From assembly GCF_900177805.1 (NCBI RefSeq), contig NZ_FXAX01000005.1, positions 62,001-126,000 on the forward strand: a stretch of 64,000 nucleotides of DNA. The letters are read 5' to 3'. A program made the position numbers and the translations under genes. Origin of the DNA: Fibrobacter sp. UWB13 (GTDB lineage: Bacteria > Fibrobacterota > Fibrobacteria > Fibrobacterales > Fibrobacteraceae). How positions within the stretch are numbered: position 1 is the first letter of the stretch; each line of letters opens with the position of its first letter. The notes under the pieces are model-generated. The model was given only the letters and a program-made list of their open reading frames with translations, made no database searches and was not told the origin of the DNA. Positions 3,685-17,029 of the stretch are shown here, in pieces.

Positions 3685-5688
3685 TTACTTGTACATGTAA
3701 ATCTTGCCATTGGGGAACTTGAATTCCTTCATTCCAGCGGTATTCACCTGACTTACGGACTTCACATCGCCACCGTAGAAAATCGTGCTGCCATGGTATT
3801 CCGGCTTGAACGCCGCACTTTCTGTACCGTAGTAATTATCGCTTGTGAAGCTGACAGACGCACAATTCGGGGTGTCGGTCGAGTAGTCACCGAATGCGAG
3901 GAGCACGCCGCCCGTAATTTCAAAGCCTGTGTCCGTATCGATGAGGCCGCCCGCCATATTGGAGGGGCATCCATTGCCACCACCCTGTTGACCACCCATA
4001 CCCGGGAAACCGCCACCCATGTTCCAGCCGCCCCCGCCAGGGAAACCGCCGCCCATACCGCCATTTTCATAGCTTTGGCCGGTAATTTCGAGAATCAACA
4101 CACCACCCGTCATCTTTGCAGAACCATTGGCGTCAAGCACGTCAATCATGTTGCCCTTTGATGCGATGTAGTGGTGACCGCCACTAATCACAGCATGACC
4201 GCTCGATTCGCTGAACATGGAATAACCACCGGCATTTTCCTTGGCGCCACCCGCAGCGTTCCAGCCATCATTTGTGGCAAATGTAGCCGTGACGCCACCT
4301 TCTGCAAAAATTTTGTAGGCTTCCAAGCCTTCGTAAGCTGTAACGACGTTAATCGTAGAACCGCTCAAATGCAAAACGGAGTCCGCGTGGATACCATCGT
4401 CCTTCGTGGAAATGGTCACGTCTCCCGCGTTCATGAAGACTTTGTATTTTGTATGCAGTGCATCGTCATCGGCAGTCACATTGATGTTACCGCCGTTCAC
4501 ATAGATGAACTTTTCAGCCACCAAGCCCTTGCCTGTAGAAGTCACCTTAACCGTTGACGGCTCCGTAGAATCGCTCACCATGACATAATGTGCAGCCTGG
4601 ATGCCATCATCACCCGCTTTAATGGTGATGTTACCGCCACGAATATCGACAATGCCCTTACCGTCGATAAAGGATTTGCACTTGCCATCAGTACCTTCTT
4701 CGCATTCGTCACTTTCAAGGGCATCGCCCTTCTTGGCCGTGAGATTCAGCGTACCGCCAGAAATCTGGAGGCTGCCCTTGCCCTTGATGGCGTTTTCTTC
4801 GGCTTCCACGGTGATGTTGCCGTTCTTGATTTTAAGATCGTTACTGCACTGGATACCGTTTTTGAACTTGCCCTTGACGGTCAAAGTACCGGCACCCTTG
4901 ATGTTCAAATCGTCTCTCGAATAAATGGCGGCCTTTGCCGTATCCTGAGCACCATTGACCTTTACGAACAAGTGATTACCATTACCGTCTTCAACCACGT
5001 TGGTCGTACCCTTGACCAAATGGAGAACCGTCTTGTCAGCATTTTTCACAAGAATCGGAGCATTGGAGCTCTTAATCGTCGCATTGTGAAGATAGATGCC
5101 CGTGTTGCCTTCGTTTTCGGCACCCGGAGTATTCACCACCACCTGGAAATCGGACGATTCACCGGTGACGTAATAAGCGCCCGGGCAAGTAATCGTTGCG
5201 CTTTTGTCTGCAATTTCAACGCAGCCATTGTTGTTTTCGACAGTAGCCGAAGTCCCCGCAAGCTTCAGGAGAATCTGCGTACCATCCAAAGTCCTTGCAT
5301 CTTCGTTATCGTTCTCATTGTCGCCAGATTCCGAGCTGCCGGGGATTGCATTGTTAGAACTCGACGACACAACAGGGACGACATTGCTGGAGCTAGAGGC
5401 GCCGACGTTCGGCACAACGCTAGAACTCGAAACAACATTGCCCGGCAATGCATTGCTTGAACTAGAAACTACGTTGCCAGGAAAAGCGCCGTTGCTAGAG
5501 CTCCAAATTTCAACATCAATGTCCAGAATGCCGGAACTAGATTCGATGCCAAAAGCACCGCTGCTAGAAGAGGTTGCCGCAGGGAGATAAGCCCCCGAAT
5601 CAGGATTTACAATTGAACTATCTTCGCCACATGCCCAAAAGCTCAAAGCTGCAGACGCAGCTATCACAGGCAACTTTTTTAACATCAT
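3685..5688 (-). CDS. DUF4353-like carbohydrate-binding beta-helix lipoprotein with Ser and Gly linkers
   Basis: A 667-residue surface lipoprotein. The ATG at 5688 is preferred over the in-frame ATG at 5700 because GGAG lies at the right distance before it. The signal peptide ends in SFWAC, a lipobox. Residues about 25-125 are a stalk made of repeated VVSSSSN/PGN units. The main body (about 135-600) has repeated GNITVEA/GGTLNLTAKKGDAL/DDGIHADSVLHLSGS turns typical of a right-handed beta-helix and of the DUF4353 (Cthe_2159-like) family, whose founding member binds cellulose/pectic acid and calcium. Near the C-terminus lies a Gly/Met/Pro-rich segment (GGGFPGMGG type). Binding to plant polysaccharide is inferred from the family. 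Confidence 0.8.
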   Translation of the reverse strand: MMLKKLPVIAASAALSFWACGEDSSIVNPDSGAYLPAATSSSSGAFGIESSSGILDIDVEIWSSSNGAFPGNVVSSSSNALPGNVVSSSSVVPNVGASSSSNVVPVVSSSSNNAIPGSSESGDNENDNEDARTLDGTQILLKLAGTSATVENNNGCVEIADKSATITCPGAYYVTGESSDFQVVVNTPGAENEGNTGIYLHNATIKSSNAPILVKNADKTVLHLVKGTTNVVEDGNGNHLFVKVNGAQDTAKAAIYSRDDLNIKGAGTLTVKGKFKNGIQCSNDLKIKNGNITVEAEENAIKGKGSLQISGGTLNLTAKKGDALESDECEEGTDGKCKSFIDGKGIVDIRGGNITIKAGDDGIQAAHYVMVSDSTEPSTVKVTSTGKGLVAEKFIYVNGGNINVTADDDALHTKYKVFMNAGDVTISTKDDGIHADSVLHLSGSTINVVTAYEGLEAYKIFAEGGVTATFATNDGWNAAGGAKENAGGYSMFSESSGHAVISGGHHYIASKGNMIDVLDANGSAKMTGGVLILEITGQSYENGGMGGGFPGGGGWNMGGGFPGMGGQQGGGNGCPSNMAGGLIDTDTGFEITGGVLLAFGDYSTDTPNCASVSFTSDNYYGTESAAFKPEYHGSTIFYGGDVKSVSQVNTAGMKEFKFPNGKIYMYK

Positions 5689-10608: not shown

Positions 10609-10758
10609 CGTCATTGCACGTCATTGCACGTTATTGCACGTCGTGCATGACACTACGAGTATCAAATATGAGTCAACAAGTGGACTCCTGCTTGATACTC
10701 TTGTACGTCATTGTGCAAGCACAAGACTATCGACTCGGTCATATCCATGCAAGCATGG
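10609..10758. repeat. repeat and hairpin zone beside the GIY-YIG gene
   Basis: No gene is seen here. Three tandem 10-bp units CGTCATTGCA (10609-10638, the last with one change) run into TGCACG-T-CGTGCA (10635-10647). An inverted pair GAGTATCAA (10657-10665)/TTGATACTC (10692-10700) encloses GAGTC...GACTC (10670-10687). Two perfect AA-loop hairpins follow: TTGTGC-AA-GCACAA (10711-10724) and CCATGC-AA-GCATGG (10745-10758). The same AA-loop style occurs in the array at 15.0-15.3 kb. Confidence 0.8.
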
Positions 10759-10775
10759 CTGCGACTCTCGTCTTA

Positions 10776-10808
10776 GACGTCATTGCGAGCGAAGCGAAGC
10801 AATCCACA
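10776..10808. repeat. palindromic element type C, left copy
   Basis: Core 10782-10803: arms ATTGC and GCAAT around the loop GAGCGAAGCGA, preceded by GACGTC and followed by CC. It is inverted relative to the copy at 11131-11167, and the pair brackets the GIY-YIG gene. The loop contains the mini-hairpin word GCGAAGC. Confidence 0.8.
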
Positions 10809-14972: not shown

Positions 14973-15033
14973 GTTATTCCCGGCGCCTGTCCTCGCGCCT
15001 GTCCTCGCTTGACGGGGATGACCGGGAATCTCC
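14973..15033 (-). repeat. dispersed palindromic element, type E copy 2 (expanded)
   Basis: The reverse-oriented relative of 2277-2317. ATTCCCGG (14976-14983) pairs with CCGGGAAT (15022-15029). Inside is a perfect tandem duplication of the 12-mer GCGCCTGTCCTC (14983-14994, 14995-15006). Confidence 0.6.
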
Positions 15034-15037
15034 TTTT

Positions 15038-15316
15038 GACACTCTTCGAGTGTCTTTTGCGAGGCTCGGAAGTGGGCCTGTAAACAGTCCCGTTTCACTC
15101 GCCTTACGCAAAAGTTTCTAAATTTGCGCTCCTTCGGAGTGCATTTGGCATCTACGATGCCATGCAGCTGCATTTCGGCCATAGGTAATGTAAACATTAC
15201 CTGCGGCACTCAATTTGCACGCATTTAATACGGCTCGGCAATGTCAAAACAACAAGTTGTTTTGACGTCTTCGACGTCAGTGGCTACGGCTCGCAAATGC
15301 AAAAACAAGTTTTTGC
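15038..15316. repeat. array of perfect mini-hairpins in the gpmI upstream region
   Basis: The gap 14950-15394 has no gene. It holds: GACACTC-TTC-GAGTGTC (15038-15054); GGGCCTGT-AA-ACAGTCCC with one mismatch (15074-15091); TGCGCTCC-TTC-GGAGTGCA with one wobble (15125-15143); TGGCATC-TAC-GATGCCA (15146-15162); the palindrome ATGCAGCTGCAT (15162-15173); AGGTAATGT-AA-ACATTACCT (15183-15202); 11-bp arms GTCAAAACAAC around AA (15243-15266); TGACGTC-TTC-GACGTCA (15263-15279); GCAAAAAC-AA-GTTTTTGC (15299-15316). Loops are AA, or TTC/TAC (GAA/GTA on the minus strand). Confidence 0.85.
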
Positions 15317-15337
15317 GCTTTCTCACCTTGCACACTT

Positions 15338-15366
15338 TTGCCGCTGCGCTCGCCTTTTACTAAATT
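15338..15366 (+). promoter_or_regulatory. probable gpmI promoter
   Basis: TTGCCG (15338-15343), 17-bp spacer, TAAATT (15361-15366), the same hexamers as before cysS. It places transcription start about 20 bases before the gpmI ATG and puts the hairpin array upstream of the promoter. Confidence 0.5.
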
Positions 15367-15394
15367 TGTCGCGTAACATTTTAATGGAGTAAAT

Positions 15395-17029
15395 ATGCTC
15401 AAGAAACTTTCCAACTTCCCTGGCATCAAGGGCCCGGTCGTCACCATCGTGATGGACGGTTTTGGTATCACCGATAAGGTCGAAGGCAACGCCATCAAGG
15501 CAGCCCGCACCCCGACTCTCGACAACCTCTTCAAGATGTACCCGAACGTTCTCTTGAAGGCTCACGGTCGCGCTGTCGGTATGCCGACCAACGAAGACAT
15601 GGGTAACTCCGAAGTCGGCCACAACGCAATCGGTGCTGGCCAGGTTTACAACCAGGGTGCAGCCCTCGTTGCAGACGCCATCAACAGCGGCGACATCTTC
15701 GGCCGTGACGCTTGGAAGGAAATCTCCGGCAACGTTCGTGAAAAGAACACCGTTCTCCACTTCATCGGCCTCTTCAGCGATGGTAACGTTCACTCCAACA
15801 TCGCTCACCTCAAGGCTATGGTTGCCCAGGCCAAGAAGGAAGGCGTCAAGAAGGTTCGCGTTCACATCCTCCTCGACGGTCGTGACGTTCCGGAAACCTC
15901 CGCTCTCGATTACGTCGGCCCGTTTGAAAAGTTCCTCGACGAACTCCGCTCTCCGGAATTCGACGTTTGCATCGCTTCTGGCGGTGGACGTATGCAGATC
16001 ACCATGGACCGTTACAATGCTAACTGGAAGATGGTGGAACTCGGCTGGAAGACCCACGTGCTCGGCGAAGGCCGCTACTTCGACAACGCTACGCAGGCTA
16101 TCGAAACCCTCCGCGGCGAAACCAAGGCTATTGACCAGGACCTCCCGCCGTTCGTGATTGCTAAGGACGGCGCTCCGGTTGGCACCATCAACGATGGCGA
16201 CTCCGTGGTGTTCTTCAACTTCCGTGGCGACCGCGCTATCGAAATCACGCGCGCCTTCGAAGAAGAATCCTTCAATGAATTTGACCGCAAGCGCTTCCCG
16301 CACGTCTGCTACGCAGGCATGCTCCAGTACGACGGCGACCTCAAGCTCCCGAATCGCTTCCTCGTTCCGCCTCCGGCAATCAAGGAAACCAGCGGCGAAT
16401 GGCTCTCTGAAACCGGCGTCAAGCAGTTCGCTTGCTCCGAAACGCAGAAGTACGGCCACGTCACTTACTTCTGGAATGGTAACCGTTCCAGCAAGTTCGA
16501 CGGCGAAACCTACCTCGAAATCGAATCTGACGTTGTTCCGTTCGAACAGCGCCCGTGGATGAAGGCTGCCGAAATCACCGACGCCATGATCGAAGCTTTG
16601 AAGAGCGGCAAGTACCAGACTCTCCGCTGCAACTTCCCGAACGGCGACATGGTGGGCCATACCGGTTCCTTCCGCGCTGCTACCATGGCTATCGAAGCTG
16701 TGGATATCGGCCTCGCCCGTTTGCTCCCGGTAATCGACGCCCTCGGTGGTGTTGCTATCATCACGGCTGACCACGGTAACGCCGACGAAATGTACGAAAT
16801 CGACAAGAAGACCGGCATGCCGAAGGTCAACAAGGATGGTTCCTTCAAGGCCAAGACGAGCCACACCCTCAACAAGGTGCCGTGCATCCTTTACGATAAC
16901 GTCACTGGCGGCAAGCTCGGCCTCAAGGAAGGCGACTGGGGCCTTTCCAACATCGCTGCTACGACGGCCAACCTCCTCGGCCTCGAAAAGCACGAAGCTT
17001 GGGACGATTCCATGCTCATCATCAAGTAA
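15395..17029 (+). CDS. gpmI: 2,3-bisphosphoglycerate-independent phosphoglycerate mutase
   Basis: A 544-residue cytoplasmic enzyme that interconverts 3- and 2-phosphoglycerate in glycolysis, using two Mn ions and a phosphoserine intermediate. Seen: VVTIVMDGFG (metal ligand Asp21), GNSEVGHNAIGAG with the catalytic Ser72, ILLDGRDVPETSA, FNFRGDRAIE, and the C-terminal metal site ITADHGNADEM followed by KTSHTLNKVPCIL. Length is near the family's 510-550. Codon use is strongly biased to a few codons (AAG, GGC, CTC), consistent with high expression. GGAG precedes the ATG. A terminator follows. Confidence 0.98.
   Translation: MLKKLSNFPGIKGPVVTIVMDGFGITDKVEGNAIKAARTPTLDNLFKMYPNVLLKAHGRAVGMPTNEDMGNSEVGHNAIGAGQVYNQGAALVADAINSGDIFGRDAWKEISGNVREKNTVLHFIGLFSDGNVHSNIAHLKAMVAQAKKEGVKKVRVHILLDGRDVPETSALDYVGPFEKFLDELRSPEFDVCIASGGGRMQITMDRYNANWKMVELGWKTHVLGEGRYFDNATQAIETLRGETKAIDQDLPPFVIAKDGAPVGTINDGDSVVFFNFRGDRAIEITRAFEEESFNEFDRKRFPHVCYAGMLQYDGDLKLPNRFLVPPPAIKETSGEWLSETGVKQFACSETQKYGHVTYFWNGNRSSKFDGETYLEIESDVVPFEQRPWMKAAEITDAMIEALKSGKYQTLRCNFPNGDMVGHTGSFRAATMAIEAVDIGLARLLPVIDALGGVAIITADHGNADEMYEIDKKTGMPKVNKDGSFKAKTSHTLNKVPCILYDNVTGGKLGLKEGDWGLSNIAATTANLLGLEKHEAWDDSMLIIK

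Follow-up and report, generated by a model that had tools for sequence, protein, structure and literature searches.

A few DNA elements are read as folded single strands in which shape matters more than sequence, among them the integron attC sites and the hairpin promoters of the N4 virion RNA polymerase, the latter being phage sites that serve a phage polymerase. Beyond attC sites and transposon ends, DNA folds conserved by compensatory change have rarely been documented. Putative mobile promoters (prokaryotic promoter propagation) are dispersed copies recognized by sequence identity. Mitochondrial double-hairpin elements have a variable sequence and a conserved fold. In Allomyces and other fungi they are described as tiny, intergenic, apparently mobile and made of two adjacent hairpins (Paquin et al. 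2000, as presented in PMC5910586). REP, BIME and REPIN repeats have a conserved sequence with GTAG/CGTC tags, and the GTAG families are found with RAYTs (PMC3733652, PMC3116915).

Here, a hairpin cluster before gpmI was analysed in a window of 64,000 nucleotides from Fibrobacter sp. UWB13, hereafter the source genome. Its hairpins belong to a family that probably consists of structure-conserved, mobile, promoter-bearing DNA hairpin elements, kept by their fold rather than by their sequence. A description of such units was absent from the open-licence literature searched, and the element is apparently undescribed; the main text of the F. succinogenes S85 genome paper mentions neither palindromes nor intergenic repeats.

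Four nested copies of a two-hairpin unit

Nine inverted repeats had been claimed at 15038-15316 in a sequence-only reading of the locus, and all nine were located, six perfect and three imperfect in about 280 bp (Table 1). The perfect hairpins have arms of 6 bp or more and loops of 2-3 nt. In 2000 dinucleotide shuffles of 290 bp, such hairpins averaged 0.2 and their highest count was 3, against these six, and shuffles of the whole window never exceeded 3 per 300 bp. In the 464 kb sampled from the source genome for the clustering test, this hairpin cluster was the densest. When treated as single-stranded with DNA parameters, the 334 bases from 15035 to 15368 folded far better than shuffled sequences, with z of -5.4 for the minus strand and -4.7 for the plus strand. 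The C-GNA-G triloops announced for the minus strand are present; this strand carries GNA and CTTG loops and tandem G.A mismatches in the units, and it is the stabler fold in 35 of 45 of them.

The view of the repeats as unrelated mini-hairpins was not supported, as they form related units that share conserved internal loops. The hairpins are not independent. They are linked by long-range pairs, namely CTTTTGCG (15054-15061) with CGCAAAAG (15107-15114), GGC with GCC and a 3-bp variable helix, and so make up four nested copies (A, X, BC and D) of one unit of about 80 nt with two hairpins. The unit starts with TTTTG and hairpin 1, which has a TTC/TAC-type loop, followed within an outer stem by the long imperfect hairpin GGC-TCG-NNN-ATG-(hairpin 2)-CGC-N'N'N'-CTC-GCC. 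In this core, NNN and N'N'N' are the two sides of the variable helix, hairpin 2 has an AA loop and the other arm of the outer stem comes last. Units are non-coding and range from 73 to 95 nt.

By BLAST against relatives, the region proved to be a patchwork of modules, which are combined differently elsewhere. For instance, the unit A module has copies upstream of several genes, including ileS, serS and pgk. Modules B, C and E directly adjoin one another in the glyS, prfA and dnaX copies and before gpmI of genome G010, which is the basis for unit BC, and unit D was not found in this arrangement at G010 gpmI or at prfA of the source genome. Directly upstream of the cluster, window positions 14977-15036 hold a different dispersed repeat (ATTCCCGG...CCGGGAAT, GTCATCCCCG-like), with scattered matching copies in the source genome and in G001.

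Table 1. Features of the window, in window coordinates; R2 is one of three covariance models that were built, and E is its match value.
Feature	Positions	Strand	Description	Basis
Unit A	15034-15118	+	hairpin 1 (15038-15054, TTC), long hairpin, stem CTTTTGCG/CGCAAAAG, hairpin 2 (AA)	R2, E 3.1e-9
Unit BC, 5' part	15115-15142	+	CTAAATTTG then hairpin 1 GCGCTCC-TTC-GGAGTGC; interrupted by unit X	
Upstream -7-like box	15119-15126	+	TAAATTTG, without a -33 TTTG at 19-21 nt	sequence
Unit X, nested in BC	15143-15227	+	hairpin 1 GGCATC-TAC-GATGCC, hairpin 2 AGGTAATGT-AA-ACATTACCT	R2, E 5.3e-11
Unit BC, middle	15220-15267	+	5' arm of outer stem, GGCTCGGCAATG, hairpin 2 (15243-15266)	
Unit D, nested in BC at TTTTG	15260-15340	+	hairpin 1 GACGTC-TTC-GACGTC, hairpin 2 GCAAAAAC-AA-GTTTTTGC	R2, E 1.2e-26 (not independent, unit D being one of the sequences R2 was built from)
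Unit BC, 3' end, and predicted gpmI promoter	15336-15368	+	-33 TTTG 15337-15340, 20-nt spacer with CTCGCC, -7 TAAATTTG 15361-15368	
gpmI (phosphoglycerate mutase), downstream gene	15395-17029	+	ORF	name from the sequence-only reading and the sequence alone
Second, diverged unit	10708-10785	+	two AA-loop hairpins	R2, E 3.3e-4
Inverted repeat	15038-15054		TTC loop	
Inverted repeat	about 15076-15094		AA loop, one mismatch	
Inverted repeat	15126-15142		TTC loop, one G.T	
Inverted repeat	15146-15162		TAC loop	
Inverted repeat	15162-15173		loop absent	
Inverted repeat	15183-15202		AA loop	
Inverted repeat	15243-15266		AA loop	
Inverted repeat	15263-15279		TTC loop	
Inverted repeat	15299-15316		AA loop	

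Conservation of the fold

The proposal that the shape is kept while the arm sequences turn over was borne out in related genomes, including by compensatory changes at orthologous gpmI. There, GGT..ACC has become GGC..GCC in G006 and GACGTC/GACGTC has become GACGTT/AACGT in G001. The GGC/GCC stem itself is swapped in other units, to AAC/GTT in L009 and to GCC/GGC in L087. The fold was analysed on 146 aligned units, 125 of them distinct, in an alignment fitted to the structure. Among the distinct units, 95.0% of cells were paired and all 19 pairs showed changes on both sides. The covariation score was 0.719, compared with 0.206 for shuffled and at most 0.114 for slid controls. In addition, an extra helix outside the model was paired in 168 of 228 against 81.9 after shuffling.

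Such strong covariation would also be expected if a structured RNA (a leader, 3' UTR or small RNA) were the selected molecule, and the units do fold stably as RNA (z about -3), the minus strand having GNA and CUUG-type loops. A selected RNA would nevertheless tolerate G.U on its own strand. Of 2272 cells, 2128 were Watson-Crick, 30 were G.T (1.3%) and 24 were A.C (1.1%); the two wobbles are equally rare, neither strand is favoured and DNA is therefore the likelier conserved molecule. Moreover, units stand in both orientations to neighbouring genes, the gpmI fold stops at the predicted -7 box and Rfam has no match in the window, all of which makes the RNA explanation improbable. No Rfam family matched L157 or L158 either, and a first reading of L158 as rnpB-like was dropped for this reason.

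The fold could alternatively be a by-product of mutation that is not itself selected, with ordinary recombination spreading the repeats and template switching during replication (quasipalindrome correction) perfecting their arms. The quick turnover of arms beside persistent loops agrees with this, as does the near-total predominance of Watson-Crick pairs with hardly any wobble intermediates, which templated correction would yield. However, the internal loops TCG/CTC and ATG/CGC are conserved across units as mismatches and have not been corrected, which argues against pure template-switch correction as what maintains the fold. The long outer stem and the 3-bp helix between the conserved loops covary as well, and we regard the by-product explanation as rather unlikely. 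Selection on the fold may act through transposition or through promoter control.

Operators bound by a protein that recognizes symmetric DNA sites were also considered, the palindromes being immediately upstream of the promoters of housekeeping genes. Yet the arms are unrelated between copies and altered in orthologues, and conservation is limited to loops and linkers, so that operators are extremely improbable.

Dispersal and insertion of the units

Model R2 gave 46 matches in the source genome at E < 0.1. Each of the 49 Fibrobacter genomes sampled had units, as did 6 other Fibrobacteraceae genomes, with zero units outside Fibrobacteraceae in that search. A lone Hyphomonadaceae match (L218) was dropped as due to chance. 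A Bacteroidaceae match (L223) was genuine on follow-up. Relatives in Bacteroidales were reached through one exact 19-mer and occur in at least six genomes. The exact unit pattern had 8-86 matches in each of 6 of 149 Bacteroidales genomes, with few matches for the reversed pattern, and the Bacteroidales genome G123 had 67 model matches. Across the Bacteroidales loci L231-L292, the dominant arm sequence of hairpin 2 differs per genome (CAAATAAATTTG in G151, for example), and this suggests homogenization across each genome.

The units are dispersed, nested, arranged in tandem, and present or absent at orthologous sites. In the source genome none of 47 lies within a called gene; gene context was called by a codon-usage rule, as a longest-ORF rule was misled by long antisense ORFs. 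The region upstream of gpmI is free of units in 8 species, and unit sets differ where they occur: A, X, BC and D in the source genome, BC only in G010, and in G006 unit A at another place, a 78-nt insertion between -33 and -7. D units form tandem runs with a common TTTTG. Near-identical units also occur in different surroundings within the source genome, as in L088, L089 and L090, three such units inside a longer repeat with the ends TTTGACCACTTAG...CTTATGTGGTCATGATCCGCG. As for unit orientation, no replication-strand bias was seen (14 versus 11).

In genus g8, a fragmentary thrS copy contains up to eight units, and its junctions correspond to inserts of 73-80 nt. No clear target-site duplication, a feature of classical MITEs, was found at these junctions or at the G006 gpmI insertion. 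BC-type units have CTAWAT repeated at either end, a possible target-site duplication. The fragmentary thrS copies are located in L157 (4070-6300 and 11800-12710, G081), L173 (2247-3122, G048) and L174 (1832-2890, G046); in G048 and G046 the distance to the intact thrS is about 5-6 kb. They carry many units in a single orientation, and some unit sites and sequences are common to the species despite a 7-10% exon difference, the exon changes being mostly synonymous. The in-frame stops and the single orientation had prompted the idea of an intron-like removal of the units; it was rejected, as intact thrS exists elsewhere in all three genomes and the fragmentary copies are without the N-terminal part. 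The array of L157 also includes, at about 5386-5541, a fragment resembling the 3' part of carB (named from its translation alone), as if pieces of genes had become caught between hairpins. In G104, one unit type was found in three places (L149, L150 and L151) inside or beside genes resembling Rpn-type (PD-D/EXK) recombination nucleases, and the units within these genes were read as lying in the orientation opposite to that in thrS, which also spoke against an intron-like removal.

Intergenic palindromes in tandem and nested arrays without a clear target duplication recall REP/BIME-type repeats mobilized by a RAYT or an IS200-type tyrosine transposase, and the source genome does encode an IS200-type TnpA. 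This sole Y1 transposase (L136, 1450-1893) has no adjoining unit, however, and G037, G053, G065 and G069 have none although each contains 32-36 units; PF01797 is absent from these four, from G102 and from other unit-bearing genomes. The GTAG/CGTC tag was not seen on inspection of the unit alignments and arm sequences are variable. Such a carrier was rejected on distribution and is highly improbable, and no transposase or recombinase could be linked to the units. As structure-conserved mobile elements, the units would spread through the genome by insertion without a clear target duplication, probably by way of a hairpin intermediate, single-stranded or cruciform, on which some enzyme would act.

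Predicted promoter and comparison with known systems

TTTG at -33 and TAnnTTTG at -7 form the promoter consensus of the primary Bacteroidetes factor sigma-ABfr (PMC7366714). We infer that Fibrobacter uses this FCB-type consensus too; upstream of genes in the source genome, TAnnTTTG was modestly enriched (19 versus 9 on the opposite strand, of 174). In intact units, TTTG is followed after 20 nt by TAnnTTTG, the -7 box being the 3' arm of the outer stem. The placement of the hairpins upstream of the gpmI promoter, as had been stated, was not supported: the last unit itself holds the likely promoter (Table 1). BC-type copies end with TTTG, 20 nt and TAAATTTG or close variants directly before glyS, prfA, metG and gpmI, and dnaX has TATATTCC; these genes were named by reading N-terminal protein sequences. 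In Fibrobacter clusters, TAnnTTT(G) follows the last unit in 16 of 78 and inner units in 0 of 12, with a background of 0.35% for the full TAnnTTTG. Many diverged Fibrobacter units are without a recognizable -7 box, and their orientation relative to genes varies; promoter function can therefore not hold for all units.

The Bacteroidales units gave the strongest evidence for a promoter. Of their 65 candidate arrays, some of which are chance matches in coding DNA, 35 have a gene-proximal unit with TAnnTTTG exactly 6 nt after CTCGCC, and TTTG is located at 19-20 nt in 30 of these 35; at gpmI and the other BC copies, the geometry before the genes is the same, with 20 nt. Inner units kept the box in 5 of 33, often with TA deleted. 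An ORF lies at most 160 nt away in 36 of 40. The NN of the -7 box is complementary to the upstream arm in 19 of 25 Bacteroidales units, compared with 5.7 after shuffling (maximum 13 in 10,000).

Altogether, each copy combines a small hairpin, with a 3-nt loop that is GNA on the minus strand, and a long imperfect hairpin in which two internal loops are conserved. The 3' half of an intact copy may form a complete FCB-type promoter: TTTG lies in hairpin 2's 3' arm or just at it, and a spacer of 20 nt that includes CTCGCC leads to TAnnTTTG. Copies inserted before genes could supply or replace the promoter of the gene, and in arrays it would mainly be the gene-proximal copy that retains a working-looking -7 box. 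More tentatively, the units may represent a new class of mobile elements of the FCB group, recognized in the form of a folded DNA strand, with the fold doubling as the promoter. The -7 box would then have to pair with the upstream arm, the anti-7 arm being able to pair with either the dead upstream -7 copy or the live one, and the unit could alternate between a cruciform fold and a linear form that is transcribed, perhaps acting as a switch that responds to supercoiling. The family joins a fold to an apparently complete, predicted promoter ahead of genes for aminoacyl-tRNA synthetases, glycolysis and release factors. With it, one could test whether cruciforms have a role at promoters in living bacteria, and it would provide a route for very small mobile elements to rewire gene control.

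Compared with integron attC sites, no cassette arrangement was noticed around the units and no integrase motif was seen. Like REP, BIME and REPIN repeats, they are dispersed intergenic palindromes that occur single, dimeric or arrayed, but their fold and not their sequence is kept and several unit-rich genomes are without a Y1 transposase. With sigma-ABfr promoters they share the spacing, 19-20 nt in Bacteroidales units and 20 nt in BC copies; to our knowledge, no ordinary sigma-ABfr promoter lies inside a hairpin or a mobile repeat. In the same way as putative mobile promoters, dispersed copies would bring a promoter to different genes, whereas the promoter predicted here lies in a fold, with covariation between its -7 box and the upstream arm. 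The mitochondrial double-hairpin elements resemble them in form, with two adjacent hairpins, variable arms, a conserved fold and apparent mobility. Their known members are mitochondrial, whereas the Fibrobacter units are bacterial, have conserved internal loops and carry a putative promoter within the 3' stem.
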